Shown one piece after another: positions 4,065 to 15,507 of a stretch of DNA of 64,000 nt; position 1 is the first letter of the stretch; each line of letters opens with the position of its first letter. The stretch lies in assembly GCA_947441615.1 (NCBI GenBank), contig CANEUH010000004.1, forward strand, positions 62,001 through 126,000, written 5' to 3'. The stretch comes from Bacteriovoracaceae bacterium. GTDB taxonomy: Bacteria > Bdellovibrionota > Bacteriovoracia > Bacteriovoracales > Bacteriovoracaceae. The notes below the pieces were generated by a model that did no database searches, had not been told where the DNA came from, and worked only from the letters and a program-made list of their open reading frames with translations. The translations under genes were made by a program, and so were the position numbers.

Positions 4065-4124
4065 TCCGTACATTGTCCGTACATTGTATTAAATTCAAAA
4101 AATTACTTTAGTGGCATATGCCAC
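4065..4124 (+). promoter_or_regulatory. Direct repeat and palindrome upstream of the HigBA-like operon
   Basis: TCCGTACATTG occurs twice in direct tandem (4065-4075 and 4076-4086), and a perfect 14-bp palindrome GTGGCATATGCCAC follows at 4111-4124. The latter ends just before the AGGAGG ribosome binding site of the toxin gene. Antitoxins of this class usually repress their own operon through palindromes, so these are plausible operator sites. Confidence 0.45.
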
Positions 4125-4134
4125 AGGAGGTATA

Positions 4135-4509
4135 ATGAGGACATGGAAAATACGGCAAACAGTTGAGTTCCAGGACTGGTTTGATGAAGCAGATAATAAA
4201 CTTAAGGAATCAATTGTTGAGCATGTTGAACTACTTAGACTCATGGGCCCACATTTAGGAAGACCCTATGCAGATACGATTAAAGGTAGTTCGATTAAAA
4301 ATCTAAAAGAATTAAGATTTAATTGTATGGAAAAAGTTATTAGGATTTTTTATGTCTTTGATAATGAACGAAATGGTCTGTTGCTAATTGGAGGAAATAA
4401 ATCGAGCAGTCGAGCTAAAAGGTTTTATGAAGATTTCATCTCACTCAGTGAGAAAATATACTATAAGCAACTTAAGACGACCAAAGATCAAAAAAAGAAC
4501 AGCGAATAA
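4135..4509 (+). CDS. HigB-like toxin (phage Gp49-like/DUF891, RelE superfamily)
   Basis: With the ATG at 4135 the product is 124 residues. This start has AGGAGG at 4125-4130; an in-frame GTG at 4111 lies inside the palindromic site and is less likely. Features typical of the Gp49/HigB group are FQDWFDEAD near the N-terminus, LRLMGPHLGRPYADTIKGSSIKNLKELRF in the middle and IRIFYVFD with LLIGGNKSS after it. Such toxins are ribosome-dependent mRNA endonucleases. The antitoxin gene follows after 10 nt. The toxin precedes the antitoxin, as is usual for HigBA. Inserted between SP1 and the methyltransferase of module copy 2, it is absent from copy 1. Confidence 0.85.
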   Translation: MRTWKIRQTVEFQDWFDEADNKLKESIVEHVELLRLMGPHLGRPYADTIKGSSIKNLKELRFNCMEKVIRIFYVFDNERNGLLLIGGNKSSSRAKRFYEDFISLSEKIYYKQLKTTKDQKKNSE

Positions 4510-4519
4510 GGAAGTAACT

Positions 4520-4837
4520 ATGAAAAAAACAAGAAAATATAACTCTGATTTCTTTTCACATGCCAAAAGGTCTATGGACAAAAAAAACTTTGAAAAAGCG
4601 AGGCAAAAGGGTCAAGCGAAGGCGCATGAGCTGAAACTGAAATTAGCGCGAGAATTAATCGGACTCAATCAAACTGACCTAAAAGGAATGACACAACCAG
4701 AAGTTTCTAAAATTGAGAGAAGGAAAGATTTGAAAATTTCGACACTTAATAAATATGCTAAGGCCTTAGGGATGAAGTTAAAAATAAGCCTCATCTCAGA
4801 TGATGATGGAGAGGAACCGATTGCTATTTTTGGATGA
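4520..4837 (+). CDS. HigA-like antitoxin, XRE-type HTH
   Basis: The product is 105 residues from the ATG at 4520, preceded by AAGGAAG. The C-terminal half carries a Cro/CI-type helix-turn-helix: LARELIGLNQTDLKGMTQPEVSKIER, with the recognition helix at TQPEVSKIE, then LNKYAKALGMKLKISLI. The N-terminal 45 residues are lysine-rich and are probably the toxin-binding or DNA-contacting part. It should neutralise the HigB-like protein encoded just upstream and repress the operon through the repeats at 4065-4124. An upstream in-frame ATG would overlap the toxin gene by over 100 bases and lacks a ribosome binding site, so it was not chosen. Confidence 0.85.
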   Translation: MKKTRKYNSDFFSHAKRSMDKKNFEKARQKGQAKAHELKLKLARELIGLNQTDLKGMTQPEVSKIERRKDLKISTLNKYAKALGMKLKISLISDDDGEEPIAIFG

Positions 4838-5670: not shown

Positions 5671-5985
5671 TTAGACTGCTTTGAGCTCGATCTCGTAATC
5701 ACAGTTTGCGCGCTTAAGCTGATCTCTTAAAACGACTAGAATAAAATACTTCTCATTTTGCTTTAATTTCTTTGCAAAATCTTTGGCGCGTTCAAGACTT
5801 ACAAACTTTCTTTCATTTTCGATATCACTTAAATGACTTATAGAAATTTTTAAGATTCTGGACATTTGTGCCAAAGTTAATTCTTCACCAAGACGGTGAT
5901 TTTTCAAAAGTTTTCCTAAATTAGTCTCCTTTACCCCAAGAGTTTTCAAAACTTTTTTTGCTGAACTATATTTACTAGTATTCAT
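5671..5985 (-). CDS. XRE-family HTH antitoxin (pair 1)
   Basis: The 104-residue protein has a Cro/CI-type helix-turn-helix: LTLAQMSRILKISISHLSDIEN, about residues 36-57, followed by RAKDFAKKLKQ. It lies downstream of, and overlaps by 11 bp, a RelE-type toxin gene. It is paralogous to the antitoxin at 13,013: both start MNTKS/MNTSK, share GKLLxxxRLxEE and end with RDQL or QDQL followed by a hydrophobic strand. It should bind and neutralise the toxin and repress the shared promoter. Confidence 0.85.
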   Translation of the reverse strand: MNTSKYSSAKKVLKTLGVKETNLGKLLKNHRLGEELTLAQMSRILKISISHLSDIENERKFVSLERAKDFAKKLKQNEKYFILVVLRDQLKRANCDYEIELKAV

Positions 5986-6259
5986 GCTTATTTACCTCAT
6001 TAATTACGATCTCTATAACCAGACTCGATTGATTTTCTTGATAAATCGCCCTATAACTTTTGCTCAATCGTATCGATCGCTGTCCCTTTCTGCTCCCTTT
6101 TAATGGTTCATCATGGTGGCCAGGAATTTTTCTGACCTCTTGAATTCCATAAAGCTCTACTTGTTCAATCCAAGAAAAAAGTTTTTCAAGGATGTAAAAT
6201 GGTAATTTGGTCAGATCCTTTTCAGCCTTCTTAAGTATAAAGACTTTTGTAACGATCAC
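5975..6259 (-). CDS. RelE/ParE-superfamily toxin (pair 1)
   Basis: The product is 94 residues from a GTG start, chosen because AAGGAG stands just before it and because it gives the same length as the paralog at 12,748. Family features are LTKLPFYILEKLFSWIEQVE in the N-terminal helices, VRKIPGHHDEPLKGSRKGQRSIRLSKSYRAIY as the core sheet with basic catalytic-side residues, and VIEIVINEVNKHEY at the end. The protein resembles HigB/RelE ribosome-dependent mRNases. Its last codons overlap the antitoxin start by 11 bp, identical in layout to the 12.7-kb pair. Confidence 0.85.
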   Translation of the reverse strand: MIVTKVFILKKAEKDLTKLPFYILEKLFSWIEQVELYGIQEVRKIPGHHDEPLKGSRKGQRSIRLSKSYRAIYQENQSSLVIEIVINEVNKHEY

Positions 6260-8728: not shown

Positions 8729-10042
8729 ATGACAAAATTTAATGATTTGCCTCTCTTAGATACGATTCTTAAAAACGTCCAAGAAGCTGGCTACGATACC
8801 CCAACACCTATCCAGGCCCAGTCCATTCCTCCTCTTTGTGATGGTAAAGATCTTTTGGGAATCGCTCAAACAGGCACGGGAAAAACAGCAGCTTTCACTC
8901 TCCCTATGCTTCAAAAGCTCTCGGGAAGAGATTTTAGTTTATCTCCCAAGGAACCTCGCTCCCTTATTCTCGCTCCAACAAGAGAACTTGCGTCTCAAAT
9001 TAAAGAGCAAATCGATAAATACGGGAAAGACTTAAAACTAAAAAGTGCCGTTATTTTTGGTGGTGTCGGACAAGCGAATCAAGTCAATGCCCTTCGTGGA
9101 GGTCTTGATATTTTAATCGCAACCCCAGGTCGCCTTTTAGATCTGATGAATCAGGGCTTTTGTAAATTAAATCGCGTCGAGATTTTTGTTTTGGATGAAG
9201 CCGATCGTATGCTTGATATGGGCTTTATTCATGATATTAAAAAAGTGATCGCTCAATTACCTGAGAAAAAACAAACCATGCTTTTCTCGGCGACCATGCC
9301 TAATGAAATTGTGGGAATTGCTAATCGAATTTTGAAAAGTCCCGTAAGAGTTGAAGTGACCCCTCCATCAAGTACAGTGGATAGAATCGATCAACGAGTG
9401 ATTTTTTGCCAGAAGGCCCATAAGTATCAACTTCTTCGTAAAGTTCTTCAAGAAGAAGGAGTGGAGCTCACTCTTGTTTTCACAAGAACAAAGCACGGAG
9501 CGAATAAAATTGTTGATTACCTTAATGCTCATCAAATTAAAGCTTCTGCTATTCACGGAAATAAATCCCAGTCCGCTCGTGAAGCGGCCCTAGAGAATTT
9601 TAAATCGGGAGCGATTAAAGTTCTCATTGCGACAGATATCGCTGCTCGCGGGATTGATGTTCAGGGTGTTTCTCATGTCGTAAACTTTGATATGCCCGTC
9701 GATGCTGAAAGCTATGTTCACAGGATTGGAAGAACGGCCAGGGCCGGAAAAGATGGAGACGCGATTTCATTTTGTGATGAAACCGAAAGAGAAGCTTTAT
9801 CGCGAGTGCAAAAACTCATAGGTCTTAAGCTTCCAGTTGAAACTTTTGTGGGAGTCGCTGAAAAATCAGTTCAGGACACGAGACCCCCTCGTCCTTATCG
9901 AGACCCAAGAGCGAAACCCAAGGCAAAACCAGACCCAAGACAAAACTCAAAACCAAATGCACCTGTGGGTCAGAAATTTCAGCAGCAACCCAAGAAAGAA
10001 GACAAATCAAAAGTTGGATATAAATTCAGGAATAAGAAATGA
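8729..10042 (+). CDS. rhlE: DEAD-box RNA helicase, RhlE type
   Basis: The product is 437 residues with the full motif set: Q motif TPTPIQAQSIP, motif I AQTGTGKT (about 46-53), PTRELA, GG, TPGRLLD, DEAD (VLDEADRMLDMGF), SAT, ARGID and HRIGRTAR. The C-terminal tail from residue 375 on is rich in Pro, Lys, Arg and Gln, as in RhlE proteins, and probably binds RNA. These helicases remodel RNA in ribosome assembly and mRNA decay. A 69-residue gene overlaps the stop by 4 bp (ATGA) and is probably translationally coupled. Confidence 0.93.
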   Translation: MTKFNDLPLLDTILKNVQEAGYDTPTPIQAQSIPPLCDGKDLLGIAQTGTGKTAAFTLPMLQKLSGRDFSLSPKEPRSLILAPTRELASQIKEQIDKYGKDLKLKSAVIFGGVGQANQVNALRGGLDILIATPGRLLDLMNQGFCKLNRVEIFVLDEADRMLDMGFIHDIKKVIAQLPEKKQTMLFSATMPNEIVGIANRILKSPVRVEVTPPSSTVDRIDQRVIFCQKAHKYQLLRKVLQEEGVELTLVFTRTKHGANKIVDYLNAHQIKASAIHGNKSQSAREAALENFKSGAIKVLIATDIAARGIDVQGVSHVVNFDMPVDAESYVHRIGRTARAGKDGDAISFCDETEREALSRVQKLIGLKLPVETFVGVAEKSVQDTRPPRPYRDPRAKPKAKPDPRQNSKPNAPVGQKFQQQPKKEDKSKVGYKFRNKK

Positions 10043-10248
10043 AAACAGATTACAAAAACCTCTCCGAACTCACTGATAAAAAACTCAGAACCCTTAGAAA
10101 TAATATCAATAACCGCATTGAATCTTTCACAAAGGGCGGAGAAAAAAATCTTCCTCCAAGTCACATGCTCCATGGACTCGATGAAGCTCAGTGCAAAGAT
10201 CTTCAAAAACAAGTCCTCGCTGAATTCAAAAAACGCGCTGGCAAATAG
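10039..10248 (+). CDS. Small conserved-looking protein coupled to the RhlE helicase (69 aa)
   Basis: The ATG overlaps the helicase stop (ATGA). The product is 69 residues, basic and helical, with the pattern LSELTDKKLRTLRNNINNRIESF followed by PPSHMLHGLDEAQCKDLQKQVLAEFKK. No family was recognised with certainty. The overlap implies coupled expression and perhaps a role with RNA or the helicase. The TAG stop is shared with the left arm of the REP-like palindrome at 10,248. Confidence 0.65.
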   Translation: MKTDYKNLSELTDKKLRTLRNNINNRIESFTKGGEKNLPPSHMLHGLDEAQCKDLQKQVLAEFKKRAGK

Positions 10249-10275
10249 TCGAAAAGGTACCGTCTACCTTTTCGA
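10248..10275. repeat. REP-like palindrome, family A
   Basis: GTCGAAAAGGTA and TACCTTTTCGA flank the loop CCGTC. Its first base is the last base of the stop codon of the 69-residue gene. Confidence 0.8.
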
Positions 10276-10321
10276 AATTTCCTAGGTGACACTTCTTTTA
10301 CTAAAATAATAATATTTAATT

Positions 10322-10702
10322 ATGATAAAGCCAAAATTAGATAACTATAAACGAGCACTCAAAACTCTTGAAGAGGCCATGCAGGCTCCACCGGCGTCAA
10401 AACTTGAGAGGGACGGTATTATTCAAAGATTTGAGTACTGCTTGGAAATTTCATGGAATTCAGCGAAAAAGGTTCTAGAGTATCAAGGTTATAAAACTGA
10501 TACTCCAAGAAACGTATTTAGAGAACTGGCAAAAATTGGGTGGATTGATAATCCAGAAGAATGGATTGAATATCTTGAAGCACGAAACAAGACTAGCCAT
10601 ATGTACCACGAAGAAATTGCAAATGAACTTTTTAAACTTGTTCCTCAATTTCTTAAATCATCTCAACATCTTTCTACAGTCCTTGAGGATAAGTTGAAAT
10701 GA
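10322..10702 (+). CDS. hepT: HepT-like HEPN toxin (HI0074 family)
   Basis: The product is 126 helical residues of the HI0074/HepT group (nucleotidyltransferase substrate-binding proteins). FEYCLEISWNSAKKVLEYQGY near 38-57, TPRNVFRELAKIGWID and WIEYLEARNKTSHMYHEEIA match the family. The HEPN active-site motif RX4HXY is intact as Arg88, His93 and Tyr95. HepT toxins are RNases held inactive by the partner MNT protein, which AMPylates the tyrosine in some systems. The partner gene overlaps by 4 bp (ATGA). Whether this protein is an active toxin here is inferred. Confidence 0.88.
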   Translation: MIKPKLDNYKRALKTLEEAMQAPPASKLERDGIIQRFEYCLEISWNSAKKVLEYQGYKTDTPRNVFRELAKIGWIDNPEEWIEYLEARNKTSHMYHEEIANELFKLVPQFLKSSQHLSTVLEDKLK

Positions 10703-11724
10703 GATCTTTTGGGCTAAAGCCATCTGAGATTGATCTAATAAAAAAGTATCTACAAAAGCATTTTGGCTCTATTCCAGACGTTAAAGTTTTTCTTTTTGGA
10801 TCTAGGGCAAAAGGATCTCATAAACCATTTTCTGATATTGACCTTGCTATAAAATCGAAATCTTCTGAAATAAAAAATAAGATTGCACTTTTCAAAGAGG
10901 ATTGGGACAACTCAAATCTACCCTATAAAGTTGATATTTCTGAGTGGAGAGACTTATATAAACCGTACCTCCCGGAAATAAATAAAACAAAAAGAAGTTT
11001 TTGGATCCCCAGCGAAAAAGAACTCCATCCCTGGAGAATATGTCCGTATGGTGAACATTGGGTCGTAAGACACCCAAGGTATCCGGTAGGCAGACAATTA
11101 CAAGAAGTTGATGGACATTGTAGAAAAAACAAGTCGGGAAAAGATTTACTTAAAAGCGATGAAATAGATTTGATATCAAAACTCACGGATTTTCAGGAAA
11201 CAAAGCCTTTACCTCAACCATATAAAGGTCAAGAGAGAATTATAGATCCGAATAAGTATGACATCTCTATTTCTGGCTGGTGTCGCTATTGGAATGAGAC
11301 TCTTAGACCTGAAATAGCAATAGATCCAAATTTTGTGAAGGCTCTCATTGAATCAGAGTCTCGGTTTAATCCAAATGCCATCGCCCAAAATAAAAAAGAA
11401 ATTGGCCCTGCTCGAGGATTAATTCAGATTACTGAATCAACATGGAGAATTCTAAAAAACCAGAAGGGAGAAATCAAAGATCACTTCATTGTTATTAAGA
11501 AGGAAGATCTTTTTGATCCTAATATCAATATATGTGTCGGCATAAGGTGGTTATTTAGAAAAAAAGAGATATTACAAAGAAGACTTGGAAGGTCTCCTCA
11601 ATGGACAGAAGTGATTGTGGAGTACAAAGGATTGGGTCCAGGTCTAAAAAAGAACAACTCAAAGAGCTTACAAATTATACAGGATTTTAACAAAATCTAT
11701 AAAAAATATCAGATCGCCAAATAA
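10699..11724 (+). CDS. MntA-like nucleotidyltransferase antitoxin fused to a lytic transglycosylase (SLT) domain
   Basis: Residues 1-105 form a minimal nucleotidyltransferase with VFLFGSRAKGSHKPFSDIDLA (GSRAKGS 34-40, Asp46, Asp48) and a third acid at Asp79 (YKVDIS), all needed for activity. Residues 110-165 hold a cysteine-containing element (HPWRICPYGEHWV, then GHCRKNKSGKD) known to me from SLT proteins of environmental Gram-negatives. Residues 205-311 form an SLT domain with catalytic Glu220 in ALIESESRFNPNA, then GPARGLIQI and FDPNINICVGIRWL. No start codon with a ribosome binding site or signal peptide lies at the junction, and the frame is continuous. MNT antitoxins end near residue 105, so the enzyme domain is appended directly. 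It overlaps hepT by 4 bp. The sequence cannot show whether both halves work or whether a deletion joined two genes. Confidence 0.8.
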   Translation: MRSFGLKPSEIDLIKKYLQKHFGSIPDVKVFLFGSRAKGSHKPFSDIDLAIKSKSSEIKNKIALFKEDWDNSNLPYKVDISEWRDLYKPYLPEINKTKRSFWIPSEKELHPWRICPYGEHWVVRHPRYPVGRQLQEVDGHCRKNKSGKDLLKSDEIDLISKLTDFQETKPLPQPYKGQERIIDPNKYDISISGWCRYWNETLRPEIAIDPNFVKALIESESRFNPNAIAQNKKEIGPARGLIQITESTWRILKNQKGEIKDHFIVIKKEDLFDPNINICVGIRWLFRKKEILQRRLGRSPQWTEVIVEYKGLGPGLKKNNSKSLQIIQDFNKIYKKYQIAK

Positions 11725-12485
11725 AATTCTCTCCAGTAGACTGATCCACTCAGTGCTCTTGAAAATTCTAACTTAAATTTGGAAAATCCAGCACGAGACT
11801 TAGGCCATAATTCCTCCGCAAGTCTTAGTGCAAAATCTAAATGACCGGAATAACTTAATTGCATTAACAATTTTAAAAACGAATGTGGTATTTCACCATC
11901 AGATCGAAATTCTTTTTTTATTTCTAGTCTCATTTCTTGGACATCTTTTGAGTTAATTGAACTTTTCATCAATTTAGGTGCCAATCTAAATTTTCCATTT
12001 TTAAGTTTTAAAATAACTTTCCCTTGGGCACTTGAAGAAAAACTATTGAAAAGATAATCAATCGGATTGTCCCAAAAGATTATTTCTAAAGATTCATCCT
12101 GATCCAAATTCTTTAATTGAAATCCTCTGCTCCCTCCTTGGATGTAAGCTAATTTATTCATACCATTTTGCAAGTTAAAAATAGTTAGGTTATAACAGCA
12201 ATGAGCACCCCCAGTCCATTGAGTCATAATAAGATCTATTTTTTTATCTCCATTCACATCTTTCATTTTTATATAATAATAAGAACCAAACTCTCGTTCT
12301 TCAAACACTGTTAGTCCATTTTTTATTATTGAAAAGTAACCTTGAAATCCATCAGATGTCTGACCAGTGATAATTTTATATTGATTAAGCTTTATTTTTT
12401 TAAATTCACGACTTCCGAAAGATTTAAAAGATAACATCAGTGTTAATAAAACTAAAAAAGACGTTGTATGCATCTTAAAATCCAT
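11709..12485 (-). CDS. Secreted protein with FG-GAP/VCBS-like repeats (258 aa, unknown)
   Basis: An N-terminal hydrophobic stretch (TTSFLVLLTLMLSFKSFG) is a signal peptide. The start may be the ATG of MHTTS, four codons in. The central part, YIKMKDVNGDKKIDLIMTQWTGGAHCCYNLTIF and LKNLDQDESLEIIFW, resembles the calcium-binding DxNxDxxxDL loops of VCBS/FG-GAP proteins and contains the GGAHCC signature found in periplasmic proteins of unknown function. The C-terminal 80 residues are helical. The gene converges on and overlaps the fusion gene by 16 bp. Function is unknown. Confidence 0.65.
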   Translation of the reverse strand: MDFKMHTTSFLVLLTLMLSFKSFGSREFKKIKLNQYKIITGQTSDGFQGYFSIIKNGLTVFEEREFGSYYYIKMKDVNGDKKIDLIMTQWTGGAHCCYNLTIFNLQNGMNKLAYIQGGSRGFQLKNLDQDESLEIIFWDNPIDYLFNSFSSSAQGKVILKLKNGKFRLAPKLMKSSINSKDVQEMRLEIKKEFRSDGEIPHSFLKLLMQLSYSGHLDFALRLAEELWPKSRAGFSKFKLEFSRALSGSVYWREFYLAI

Positions 12486-12555
12486 ATATTAATTCATTTT
12501 TAAATTTTTGTGTGCAAGTTAAGTTATCTATTTAAGAATTTAATATCAATCTCAA

Positions 12556-12621
12556 TAAGGTGCCAGGTTAAATTCTGTCGAAAATGTCGAAAAGGTACCG
12601 TCTACCTTTTCGACAGAATTT
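12556..12621. repeat. Composite of family B core and family A palindrome
   Basis: A GGTGCCAGGT core (about 12559) is followed by a nested palindrome. The family A unit with arms GTCGAAAAGGTA and TACCTTTTCGAC (12586-12614) lies inside a longer inverted repeat AAATTCTGTCGAAAA (12570-12584) and TTTTCGACAGAATTT (12607-12621). It lies in the 260-bp gap upstream of the second RelE/HTH pair. The only other item seen in that gap is the operator at 12,708. Confidence 0.75.
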
Positions 12622-12707
12622 CTCAATTGAACTAATCGTCGACTCACTTCAATTTTAGATCCGTCTTAGATCTTTTTTCAGTTATTTAGCACCTCATCTT
12701 CATCATT

Positions 12708-12726
12708 TCAAAATACGTCATTTTGA
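12708..12726. promoter_or_regulatory. Palindromic operator candidate and promoter of toxin-antitoxin pair 2
   Basis: TCAAAAT (12708-12714) and ATTTTGA (12720-12726) form a perfect inverted repeat with a 5-bp spacer. A -10-like TACAAT (12729-12734) follows directly, so a repressor bound here would block the promoter. Confidence 0.55.
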
Positions 12727-12747
12727 CATACAATAGAGGGGTTTAGG

Positions 12748-13023
12748 TTGTACAAGGTTGATCTTAGCCGAGTCCATAAAGATTTTTATCAATTACCTCT
12801 TTACATCATCACTAAACTTCACAGATGGATTGAAGGTGTTGAGAAGAATGGAATGGAGGAGATGAGAAAGATTCCAGGGTTTCACGATGAACCCCTTAAA
12901 GGTGAAAGAAAGGGATTTCGATCCATTAGACTCAACAAGGCCTACAGGGCGATTTATTACGAAAAATTCGATGCCCCCATTTTTGTCATCGTCATTATCG
13001 AGGTTAATAAACATGAATACTAA
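12748..13023 (+). CDS. RelE/ParE-superfamily toxin (pair 2)
   Basis: The product is 91 residues from a TTG start preceded by GAGGGG. No ATG or GTG is available between this point and an upstream stop. It is a clear paralog of the toxin at 5,975, sharing LPLYIITKLHRWIEGVE, MRKIPGFHDEPLKGERKGFRSIRLNKAYRAIYYEK and the C-terminal IEVNKHEY. The basic core residues of RelE-type mRNases are kept. The antitoxin gene overlaps its last 11 bp, exactly as in pair 1. Expected activity is ribosome-dependent mRNA cleavage, inferred from the fold. Confidence 0.85.
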   Translation: MYKVDLSRVHKDFYQLPLYIITKLHRWIEGVEKNGMEEMRKIPGFHDEPLKGERKGFRSIRLNKAYRAIYYEKFDAPIFVIVIIEVNKHEY

Positions 13024-13318
13024 ATCTATTAAATACGGTCTAAAAGAATTGGTTCGTGAGTTTGGGCCACTTAGTTTTGGAAAACTTCTTGAAAGTTATC
13101 GCTTGAGTGAAGAGATGTCGCAAAAAGAGTTTTCTAAGCACCTTGGAATTAGTCAGGCGTCTCTTTGTGATCTTGAAAAAGGAAGACGAATTCCAAGTCC
13201 CGAACGAGCGGCCAAAATTGCAAAAAAATTAAATGAGCCAGAATCTTTTTGGGTGCAACTTGCTCTTCAGGATCAATTGAACGAGGCGGGTCTGAAGTAC
13301 AAAGTCTCTATCGCTTAA
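13013..13318 (+). CDS. XRE-family HTH antitoxin (pair 2)
   Basis: The product is 101 residues from the ATG at 13013, which overlaps the toxin stop. The helix-turn-helix is MSQKEFSKHLGISQASLCDLEKGRRIPSPERAAKIAKKL, about residues 36-73, followed by FWVQLALQDQLNEAGLKYKVSIA. It is paralogous to the antitoxin at 5,671. An in-frame ATG at 12887 lies deep inside the toxin gene and is rejected because the paralog begins at the same overlapping position. It probably represses the operon through the inverted repeat at 12,708. Confidence 0.88.
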   Translation: MNTKSIKYGLKELVREFGPLSFGKLLESYRLSEEMSQKEFSKHLGISQASLCDLEKGRRIPSPERAAKIAKKLNEPESFWVQLALQDQLNEAGLKYKVSIA

Positions 13319-13566
13319 CTCTTTAGCTTGAGCCTAATAGCACCCTTAAAGTTCTCTGGATCCACTTCAATTCCTTTTTGGGTGATTACTATTTTTCCTT
13401 CTCTCACGAGTGCTCTAGAGACTTCCCTCACATGCTCCATCTCCTCTCTCCAGTTTTCTGGATAAAGGGAGCGCGCGACTTCTGAAGGACAAATGGTTTT
13501 CCCTGGATCTCTTCTTAAGAGCATTTCTAGAATGAGATTCGCGATTTTTTTATCAGTTGGATTCAT
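13315..13566 (-). CDS. DUF3253 small protein
   Basis: The 83-residue protein matches DUF3253: GKTICPSEVARSLYPENWREEMEHVREVSRALVREGKIVITQKGIEVDPENFKGAIRLKLKS carries the family pattern of a winged-helix-like fold with the invariant GKTICPSEVAR and the final RGPIR-like GAIR. The role is unknown; family members are often encoded alone. It overlaps the epimerase stop by 14 bp and is probably the last gene of an operon with it. It also overlaps the convergent antitoxin gene by 4 bp. Confidence 0.85.
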   Translation of the reverse strand: MNPTDKKIANLILEMLLRRDPGKTICPSEVARSLYPENWREEMEHVREVSRALVREGKIVITQKGIEVDPENFKGAIRLKLKS

Positions 13567-14494
13567 GCCACTTCATGAGGCGAGAGATCCCCTCTTCAAA
13601 ACTCACCTTAGGTTCCCACCCAAGTAGATTTTTTGCCTTGGAGATATCGGCCCAAGTAATATCCATGTCGGCCTTGATTTTTTCCTGAAGGTGAAGCTTA
13701 GCTTTCTTACCGGAATTCTTTTCCATCAGAGCAATCATCTGGTGAAGTGTATAAGGATTATTTCCGCCACCAAGATTAATAATTTCATATCCTAATTTTT
13801 TGGAAGCAAGAATTGTTCCTTCAGCGATATCATCAACAAAAGTAAAATCCCGCGACTGACTACCATCTCCAAAAACAGGAAGCTCTTCGCCTTTTAAAAT
13901 TTTATCCGCAAAAATGAAGGGAGACATGTCGGGTCTTCCAGCGGGCCCATAAACTGTAAAATACCTCACCACTGAAACATCAATGCCGTATAAGTAATGA
14001 TAAGAGTACGCCATGACTTCAGCAGCTTTCTTCGTCGCTGCGTACGGAGAGATCGGAGTATTCACCGGAAGATCTTCTTTAAACGGCATCGGTTGCCCGG
14101 CGTACAAAGAACTTGTGGATGCGAGGACAAACTTTGGTGTCTTATATTGTTTCATGAGATCAAGAAGATGAAGAGATCCCATCGCATTGGTGGTCATATA
14201 TACATCTGGGTTTTCCATGGAGTAACGAACACCGGCCCTCGCAGCGAGATTAAACACGACATCGAACTCATGCTCTCGGAAAAGTTCAGCGAGCTTTGCC
14301 TTGTCTTCAATATCAATTTTTTGAAAGTGAAACTTTGGATTTTTAATTTGTGAAAGTCGATACTCTTTAAGTTTCACGTCATAATAATCATTAAGATTAT
14401 CAATCCCAACGACTTCAACCCCTCTTTCAAGAAGTTTTTCAGCAGTCTTGGCCCCAATAAAGCCAGCTGCACCAGTAAGTAACACTTTTTTCAT
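13553..14494 (-). CDS. NAD-dependent nucleotide-sugar epimerase (UDP-glucuronate 4-epimerase-like)
   Basis: The product is 313 residues from the ATG of MKKVLLTGAAGFIGAKTAEKLL; an upstream in-frame ATG lies at 14512 within the cysteine synthase end. It is a short-chain dehydrogenase of the extended type, with the NAD motif TGAAGFIG (about 7-14), DNLNDYYDVKLKEYRL typical of UDP-glucuronate epimerases, NLAARAGVRYS, the catalytic triad residues in STSSLY and YAATKKAAEVM, and FTVYGPAGRPDM. It interconverts UDP-sugars for surface polysaccharide, probably UDP-glucuronate and UDP-galacturonate. It appears co-transcribed with cysteine synthase upstream. Confidence 0.85.
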   Translation of the reverse strand: MKKVLLTGAAGFIGAKTAEKLLERGVEVVGIDNLNDYYDVKLKEYRLSQIKNPKFHFQKIDIEDKAKLAELFREHEFDVVFNLAARAGVRYSMENPDVYMTTNAMGSLHLLDLMKQYKTPKFVLASTSSLYAGQPMPFKEDLPVNTPISPYAATKKAAEVMAYSYHYLYGIDVSVVRYFTVYGPAGRPDMSPFIFADKILKGEELPVFGDGSQSRDFTFVDDIAEGTILASKKLGYEIINLGGGNNPYTLHQMIALMEKNSGKKAKLHLQEKIKADMDITWADISKAKNLLGWEPKVSFEEGISRLMKWHESN

Positions 14495-14508
14495 AGATGA
14501 AAATCCTA

Positions 14509-15507
14509 TCATGTCGAAAAGGTAGACGCTACCTTTTGAACAACGAGGCCTTTTTCTTTGAGGAATTCGGGGTTAAAGACTTTACTTTGATAGCGGAGAG
14601 CAGAATCACAAAGAATGGTCGCAATTCTTTTTCCTGAACCCTTATTCTCCAGAGCATACTTATAGGCCGCAAACACATTTAACGCCGCTGACGTTCCGAT
14701 CAGAAGGCCATCGTGCTCCGCTAAATGATAGAGCATCGAGATCATATCCTGATCATTCACCTGAACAGCATCATCAACAACCGCTTCTTTAAAATTGGCC
14801 GTGAGTCTCATGATGCCAATCCCCTCAGTGATAGAGCTTCCCGTTGAAGTGATCTCACCAAGCTTTACATAATTATAAAGCCCTGACCCCATGGGATCAG
14901 CGAGTCTGATGTGAATGGATTTATCCGCCTCTTTTAAAAACTTAGAAACTCCACCTAAGGTTCCCCCTGTTCCCACAGAAGAGACAAAGGCATTTACCTT
15001 ACGATCCATCTGATAAAAAATCTCTGGCCCCGTTGTCTCGTAATGCGCTCGAAAGTTAGCGGTATTTTCAAATTGGTTTGCCCAAAAAGCATTTGGTCTC
15101 TCAGAAGCTATTCTTTTGGCGGTATGATAAAAGTGATTCTCATTAGCGAAGGGACAAGGAGCGACTGTGATGAGTTCCACTCCAAGAGCGCGAAGGGTGT
15201 CGTATTTTTCCTGGGACTGATTATTAGGCATCACAATAATGCATTTATAACCCTTTTGGGCCGCAATCGTCGCTAGACCAATTCCTGTATTGCCCGCAGT
15301 TCCTTCCACTATCGTAAAGCCAGGTTTAAGGTTTCCACTTCTTTCCGCTTCTTCAATAATTCCCAAAGCTGCGCGATCTTTTACACTTCCACCAGGATTT
15401 AAAAACTCTGCTTTTCCAAAAATTTCACAACCCGTCATCTCCGACAGGGATTTAATTTTTATGAGTGGTGTTTTTCCGACAACTTGGTGAACATATCCCT
15501 TAATCAT
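14509..15507 (-). CDS. Cysteine synthase family PLP enzyme
   Basis: From the ATG of MIKGYVHQ, preceded by GGAG, the product is 332 residues; an 18-residue longer start at 15561 lacks a good ribosome binding site. Motifs are PGGSVKDRAALGII with the PLP lysine, EGTAGNTGIGLA as the phosphate and substrate loop, SSVGTGGTLGGVSKFL and TILCDSALRYQSKVF. The enzyme makes cysteine from O-acetylserine and sulfide, although cystathionine beta-synthase-like members share these motifs. The last residues (KVASTFST) are encoded by a REP-like palindrome that supplies the stop codon region. Confidence 0.88.
   Translation of the reverse strand: MIKGYVHQVVGKTPLIKIKSLSEMTGCEIFGKAEFLNPGGSVKDRAALGIIEEAERSGNLKPGFTIVEGTAGNTGIGLATIAAQKGYKCIIVMPNNQSQEKYDTLRALGVELITVAPCPFANENHFYHTAKRIASERPNAFWANQFENTANFRAHYETTGPEIFYQMDRKVNAFVSSVGTGGTLGGVSKFLKEADKSIHIRLADPMGSGLYNYVKLGEITSTGSSITEGIGIMRLTANFKEAVVDDAVQVNDQDMISMLYHLAEHDGLLIGTSAALNVFAAYKYALENKGSGKRIATILCDSALRYQSKVFNPEFLKEKGLVVQKVASTFST
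14513..14539. repeat. REP-like palindrome, family A, forming the 3' end of the cysteine synthase gene
   Basis: GTCGAAAAGGTA and TACCTTTT flank the loop GACGC, which is the reverse complement of the GCGTC loop of the copy at 7,990. The end of the right arm is altered (GAAC instead of CGAC). It is the last family A copy noticed in the window. Confidence 0.75.

Follow-up and report, generated by a model that had tools for sequence, protein, structure and literature searches.

A HEPN/MNT toxin-antitoxin operon whose antitoxin continues into a lytic transglycosylase, next to a candidate periplasmic inhibitor, in a Bacteriovoracaceae bacterium

Introduction

Class I HEPN/MNT toxin-antitoxin (TA) systems consist of a toxin carrying an RX4HXY motif and an antitoxin, a minimal nucleotidyltransferase (MNT), carrying a GSX10DXD motif, and correspond to the families PF08780 and PF01909 (PMC7641770), with two Mg-binding residues, Q44 and E47, also being known to matter in the Legionella HEPN toxin (PMC11586414). 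Among systems that attack the bacterial wall, the topology of the lysozyme inhibitor PliI is known in an immunity protein for a leaderless, wall-cutting muramidase effector (PMC6536674). Here we describe a locus of a Bacteriovoracaceae bacterium related to the predatory Bacteriovorax, contained in a stretch of 64,000 nucleotides (the window; contig CANEUH010000004.1 of assembly GCA_947441615.1, positions 62,001 to 126,000), in which both HEPN/MNT motifs are present, the antitoxin gene runs in frame into a lytic transglycosylase (SLT) domain, and a gene for a secreted protein adjoins. The genome comprises 3.26 Mb and has its nearest relatives in the Bacteriovoracaceae (Bdellovibrionota); the loci and genomes compared in this analysis carry labels of the form L0xx, L1xx or L2xx and G0xx, respectively.

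Judged by its genes, the whole locus is a new variant, a TA operon joined to a putative wall-toxin/inhibitor cassette, and with moderate confidence we read it, together with the mechanism proposed below, as a wall-toxin and periplasmic-inhibitor cassette attached by fusion to the terminal gene of a type VII HEPN/MNT operon. It links three conflict parts that are usually studied apart, namely an RNase toxin-antitoxin pair, a peptidoglycan-cutting toxin and periplasmic immunity, and the repeated origin of the fusion makes a selected advantage directly testable. If the reading is true, it would add a wall-targeting arm to TA biology, point to a new export or release route in the Bdellovibrionota, and bring to light several new families of muramidase inhibitors.

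Domain Organization of the Toxin and the Fusion Protein

The unit is delimited, from its reading frames, as three genes: hepT, mnt-slt, and a convergent gene for the secreted partner. The first of these (10322–10702, forward strand) encodes a HepT-like HEPN toxin of 126 residues, of the HI0074 or NTase_sub_bind family, which scores above cut-off with both PF08780 (E 4.9e-35) and TIGR01987 HI0074 (E 1.6e-23). Its RX4HXY motif is complete, and in an alignment to 8xdj, the HEPN toxin of Legionella (E 3.4e-18), R88, H93 and Y95 are retained and Q35 and E38 lie opposite the Mg-binding Q44 and E47 of that protein. PF01934 matches this HepT below cut-off only, and a search of the whole genome with PF01934 returned no matches because the window HepT belongs to PF08780. 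The NCBIfam equivalogs HepT_toxin (25.6 bits) and MntA_antitoxin (34.1 bits) were both missed against a cut-off of 60 each, whereas the HI0074 subfamily model was passed by HepT with 83 bits against 55.8, which is why the pair is placed, by motif and family, within type VII systems on the HI0074/HI0073 branch, and not with the Shewanella-type equivalogs.

The second gene (10699–11724, forward strand) overlaps hepT through an ATGA on the same strand, with both families lying above their Pfam cut-offs, and encodes a protein of 341 residues in which three parts can be told apart. The MNT antitoxin domain (residues 1–103; 10699–11007, forward strand) matches PF01909 above cut-off over residues 12–96 (E 1.2e-13) and displays GSX10DXD as G34, S35, D46 and D48, the first two belonging to the stretch G34–S40, together with D79. 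Every residue named in the original prediction, in either protein, was found. There follows a Cys/His element (residues 104–160; 11008–11178, forward strand) with C115 and C141, recognized as invariant columns in 63 homologues and described by the pattern WRxCPxGxHWVxxHPR...VDGHCRKN..KD...DEI. The C-terminal part is an SLT domain of the GH23 type (residues 185–335; 11251–11703, forward strand), which matches PF01464 above cut-off over residues 207–310 (E 1.3e-12); its catalytic Glu220 is encoded at 11356–11358, and E220, S221, G240 and Q243, which make up the ES and GLxQ motifs, are invariant across the same 63 homologues. An AlphaFold2 model covers all 341 residues with a mean pLDDT of 93.3, and Foldseek relates its N-terminal part to the Legionella MNT of a HEPN-MNT complex (8xeh) and to HI0073 (1no5), and its C-terminal part to SLT lytic transglycosylases. 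The in-frame continuation of the antitoxin into a cysteine-containing element and an SLT domain, as first noticed from the letters of the DNA, is therefore borne out by the open reading frame, by Pfam, and by AlphaFold2 with Foldseek. Since codons 80 to 125 of the window gene include no in-frame ATG, GTG or TTG, the SLT half would be produced solely as a fusion, and the possibility that translation starts internally and yields SLT on its own is rejected for this gene.

Conservation and Repeated Origin of the Fusion

The same domain order, MNT followed by Cys/His and SLT, was sought in other genomes and is present in ten more (L041–L050, from Bacteriovorax, Bacteriovoracaceae and Bdellovibrionales assemblies), making eleven with the window; the fusion is thus neither confined to one genome nor explained by a frameshift. 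A hepT gene, mostly intact and with a 4-bp overlap, lies just upstream wherever the contig reaches, with the contig end falling inside hepT in L045; in L044 hepT is internally damaged and both mnt-slt and the partner gene are intact. Ratios of dN to dS (NG86) come to about 0.17 in MNT, 0.15 in the Cys/His element and 0.12 in SLT, figures that are rough because dS is near saturation; by this measure purifying selection acts on the MNT half as well as on the SLT half. The occurrence of the fusion in eleven genomes, together with the selection on both halves, rules out an artefact of assembly or frameshift.

The fusion also has more than one origin. A tree built from 78 rows of the C-terminal module places the protein of L053, from an Oligoflexia genome, among forms that have no MNT (support 100/97 and 100/88); in a tree of MNT domains its MNT falls among stand-alone MNTs, and the grouping of every fused MNT in a single clade is rejected (AU test, p 0.0015). 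Its linker, AAKKKTSKKRIRKSRQKPKPSPTP, corresponds to the Lys-rich leader seen in relatives that lack the fusion, L088 (VAKKKKITKKQTQKSKKKPKSSPTP) among them, and the comparison identifies L053 as an antitoxin gene that ran, independently, into an entire SLT gene. In L205 (1502–2849), from another family of the phylum, the MNT gene comes first and it is HepT (PF01934, E 4.2e-25; RNRLTHEY intact) that is fused to the Cys/His-SLT module. The gene that becomes fused thus seems to be whichever one closes the TA pair, and not the antitoxin as such. At least two fusions arose where the antitoxin gene came last, and one where the toxin gene did, which makes chance unlikely.

The Secreted Partner

Downstream of the fusion gene, and absent from the original prediction, lies a convergent gene (11709–12485, reverse strand; 16-bp tail-to-tail overlap) for a protein of 258 residues with a signal peptide. 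Its similarity to SLT-adjacent proteins and a weak match to PliI make this protein a candidate inhibitor that would act on the SLT domain in the periplasm. This neighbour suggests a wall-toxin/inhibitor pair. Across the family, a same-strand gene follows within 60 bp in 74 of 83 cases, usually with an overlap of 4–16 bp, and 72 of these 74 partners have a hydrophobic N-terminus. Taking all genes that directly follow SLT genes, a hydrophobic N-terminal core is found in 73 of 75, as against none of the 79 SLT proteins, which are accordingly leaderless and do not show the signal peptide expected of family 1 enzymes. The layout of effector and immunity genes, with a leaderless toxin beside a secreted partner, is hence observed here, the window partner included.

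The partners form at least three mutually unrelated families, of 65, 10 and 3 members. That of the window belongs to the second, being 29–45% identical to nine others beside SLT genes, among them the partner of L045, which is convergent in the same manner. Members of the third (L051, L058 and L046) are secreted and GH18-like, possibly catalytically dead hydrolases serving as inhibitors. With regard to PliI, the window partner scores 16.1 bits against a Pfam cut-off of 27 (E 0.0095), Foldseek pairs it with 3od9 (probability 1.00, E 0.056, TM score 0.49–0.50 by target length), and a single-sequence search of the PDB returns PliI as top match (E 0.54); these three lines are not independent of one another and none is significant alone. 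That the partner inhibits the SLT domain is the best reading of this arrangement.

The Cys/His-SLT Family

The Cys/His-SLT module was found in 129 places of a GTDB set with one genome per species, mostly in Bdellovibrionota, with some Myxococcota-type and Legionellales assemblies, and a search with the whole protein gave matches in about half of 98 relatives, with matches to MNT only also being counted. The front ends vary, comprising an active MNT, an MNT-derived domain, DUF4325, HepT, or a short Lys/Arg-rich leader. About 14 relatives have an MNT half in which every catalytic residue (GSR..DxD) is gone, no hepT upstream, and an intact SLT half; the degenerate domain is recognizably MNT-derived (profile match probability 87.7, P 3.4e-6). 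The damaged hepT of L044, next to an intact mnt-slt and partner, likewise shows the SLT half being kept without HepT. At five loci (L085, L087, L111, L014 and L030) the module stands behind a STAS-like DUF4325, downstream of a gene with a HATPase domain and with a secreted partner present.

The Cys/His domain also occurs, at L188, L189, L191, L192, L194, L200, L201 and L202, in Sec-secreted proteins where a metallopeptidase-like HExxH domain follows it, and the gene downstream is mostly an overlapping one for a lipoprotein-like product, with which the HExxH protein makes another possible toxin/inhibitor pair. In L107 the SLT gene overlaps a kinase gene with weak similarity to zeta toxins, and the N-terminal helical part may be an antitoxin. 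An origin as phage endolysin or prophage remnant is rejected, since neither IMG/VR nor the phage collection searched contained a homologue, as is a plasmid-borne element, plasmid matches covering the MNT part only.

Toxin-Antitoxin Surroundings

Many members of the family follow TA pairs other than HEPN/MNT. SLT genes were found directly after HigBA (L060), DUF4258/DUF2283 (L062), DUF4160/DUF2442 (L054) and HicAB (L110), after Phd/YefM with RelE/ParE-like toxins (L096 and L117), and after AbiEii (L109), and in the genome of the window itself (L037 and L038) they stand directly after Phd/ParE, BrnTA and a Gp49/HTH pair. Sixty other operon-upstream genes of the same loci, taken as controls, are mostly housekeeping genes with few TA genes (among the 25 families listed).

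The locus occupies a site, between a helicase/69-residue gene and an epimerase gene (window 8729–14512), that was compared with L230–L248 and holds different TA systems in different species: two genomes of the genus carry HepT/MNT-SLT there, four carry VapBC and one has a HicB-like gene; G017 is without a TA gene at this site. By this comparison the stretch is a TA hot spot in the genus. The unit is bordered on the left, right after the stop codon of the 69-residue gene, by a palindrome of 27 bp, TCGAAAAGGTA-CCGTC-TACCTTTTCGA (10249–10275, exact match), and on the right by an identical copy (12587–12613, likewise exact). Near-identical palindromes number 8 in the window, starting at 2316, 5640, 6411, 7991, 8655, 10249, 12587 and 14514, and 26 in the genome, with none expected; they lie mostly in two clusters of contig C4 (about 3–13 kb and 64–77 kb), are intergenic and often flank TA pairs, and could be repeat-type terminators or cassette borders. 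Three more TA pairs, of the RelE/HigB type, lie within about 9 kb (4111–4837, 5671–6259 and 12748–13318), one of them adjoining the unit.

Proposed Mechanism and Alternative Explanations

The gene pair and its motifs, the fusion, which is conserved and arose repeatedly, and the secreted partner next to it are read from the sequence, and from them we infer the following steps. In the cytoplasm, MNT would adenylylate HepT at Tyr95 and thereby keep the RNase off, as extrapolated from PMC7641770, while the SLT half would be a silent passenger, harmless because there is no peptidoglycan in that compartment. It would act only past a membrane, where its most likely target, as a toxin, would be other cells' walls, with the cell's own wall after a membrane breach as the alternative; the presence of the Cys/His domain in the Sec-secreted HExxH proteins supports such an extracytoplasmic workplace. 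The partner, exported by Sec, would bind and inhibit SLT in the periplasm, and producer and kin would be protected. The tie to the TA operon would bring shared expression and make the cassette hard to lose, because losing the antitoxin half would free HepT, a cost that fits the repeated origin of the fusion; the HepT-fused case of L205 indicates that costly loss is not the whole reason. More tentatively, the locus may exemplify a composite conflict class, in which cassettes of wall toxin and periplasmic inhibitor repeatedly attach or fuse to the last gene of many kinds of TA operon, the TA pair guarding, regulating and stabilizing the cassette, and the state of the TA pair controlling production or release of the wall toxin.

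Several points weigh against this reading. No export route was found: the type VI secretion system (T6SS) protein VipA is present in none of the 58 genomes of relatives searched, by which T6SS delivery is rejected for these genomes, and the type IV secretion system (T4SS) protein TrbI, present in the genome of the window, is equally common with and without the SLT family and absent from two carriers of it (G001 and G025), with no association to suggest delivery by an X-T4SS. The enrichment of upstream TA genes was compared, among the 25 families listed for each set, without full statistical control. Each similarity to PliI is below significance, and a profile of the partner run against PDB sequences gave chance matches only, PliI not being among them. 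Distant members of the family (the APPGxHVV type) include some without an adjacent partner.

Four other explanations were considered. The first, abortive infection, is rather unlikely; it holds that a phage triggers HepT and that damage by holin or to the envelope lets the leaderless SLT lyse the cell early, with the partner preventing accidental lysis. TA operons frequently serve in anti-phage defence, a leaderless muramidase resembles an endolysin waiting for a membrane hole, and the locus is a TA hot spot, yet neither a link to phages or defence islands nor a viral homologue was found in the collections searched, and the majority of the SLT family lies outside TA operons. The second, distinctly unlikely, sees the SLT family as ordinary envelope enzymes that build or remodel the wall, VirB1-like or specific to predators, whose TA links are chance neighbourhoods in a TA-rich region. 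SLT domains do frequently work in secretion machines, TA genes abound at the loci even at a distance from SLT (HTH_3, HipA and ParE occur among the control genes), and Bdellovibrio uses a secreted lysozyme-like enzyme, DslA (PMC7511926); against this stand the leaderless state of 79 of 79 proteins, the patchy, multi-copy distribution, the three unrelated families of secreted partners and the three separate fusions to HEPN/MNT genes.

The third, which we hold to be very doubtful, follows the original prediction that loss of the antitoxin might release both an RNase and a wall enzyme, and has stress bring about that loss, the two then acting within one cell as a double suicide switch. One TA operon does encode both activities, with all catalytic residues intact, but the SLT half would be degraded along with the antitoxin and has neither a separate start nor a signal peptide or other access to the periplasm; moreover, it persists in the MNT-degenerate relatives and in L044, where there is no working HepT/MNT pair, and in L205 it is HepT that carries it instead, so this model of release is not supported. 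Finally, a functionless accidental fusion or assembly error, which the same prediction had kept as its alternative and which metagenome-type assemblies could in principle produce by misjoining genes, is refuted by the comparative data, given the ten further genomes, the selection on both halves, the independent repeats and the ordinary, unfused second HEPN/MNT pair elsewhere in the same genome (L039).

Comparison with Known Systems

Among described proteins, the partner most resembles PliI, the periplasmic inhibitor of I-type lysozymes (3od9), in being secreted and rich in β-structure and in a partial match of fold and a weak one of sequence, and differs from it in lying below the Pfam cut-off and in having an extra C-terminal helical domain. 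The cassette shares with the T6SS pair Tse1-Tsi1 and the X-T4SS pairs X-Tfe/X-Tfi (PMC6536674) a peptidoglycan cutter that lacks a signal peptide and stands next to a secreted, possibly PliI-like partner; unlike these, it has no T6SS, no association with T4SS and no known delivery domain, is tied to TA operons, and its inhibition by the partner is putative. With family 1 lytic transglycosylases (Slt70, MltE and MltC, as well as Bdellovibrio DslA) the window SLT domain has in common the fold, the catalytic Glu in ES and the G-L-x-Q motif, whereas it is leaderless, stands behind an invariant Cys/His domain and is fused to TA proteins.

The TA pair itself shares the RX4HXY toxin and GSX10DXD antitoxin of the type VII HEPN/MNT systems, represented by HepT/MntA of Shewanella oneidensis (PMC7641770), HEPN-MNT of Legionella pneumophila (PMC11586414) and HI0074/HI0073, with the gene order being that of HI0074/HI0073, the metal-site residues those of the Legionella pair, and the MNT fold matching both 8xeh and 1no5. 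In a literature search that was thin on subscription papers, we found no published description of any fusion between a TA protein and a lytic transglycosylase. Known type VII antitoxins stop after about 100–140 residues, whereas that of the window goes on into two further parts, a Cys/His element and then a lytic transglycosylase, and its locus, unlike the known ones, is adjoined by the gene for a secreted partner.
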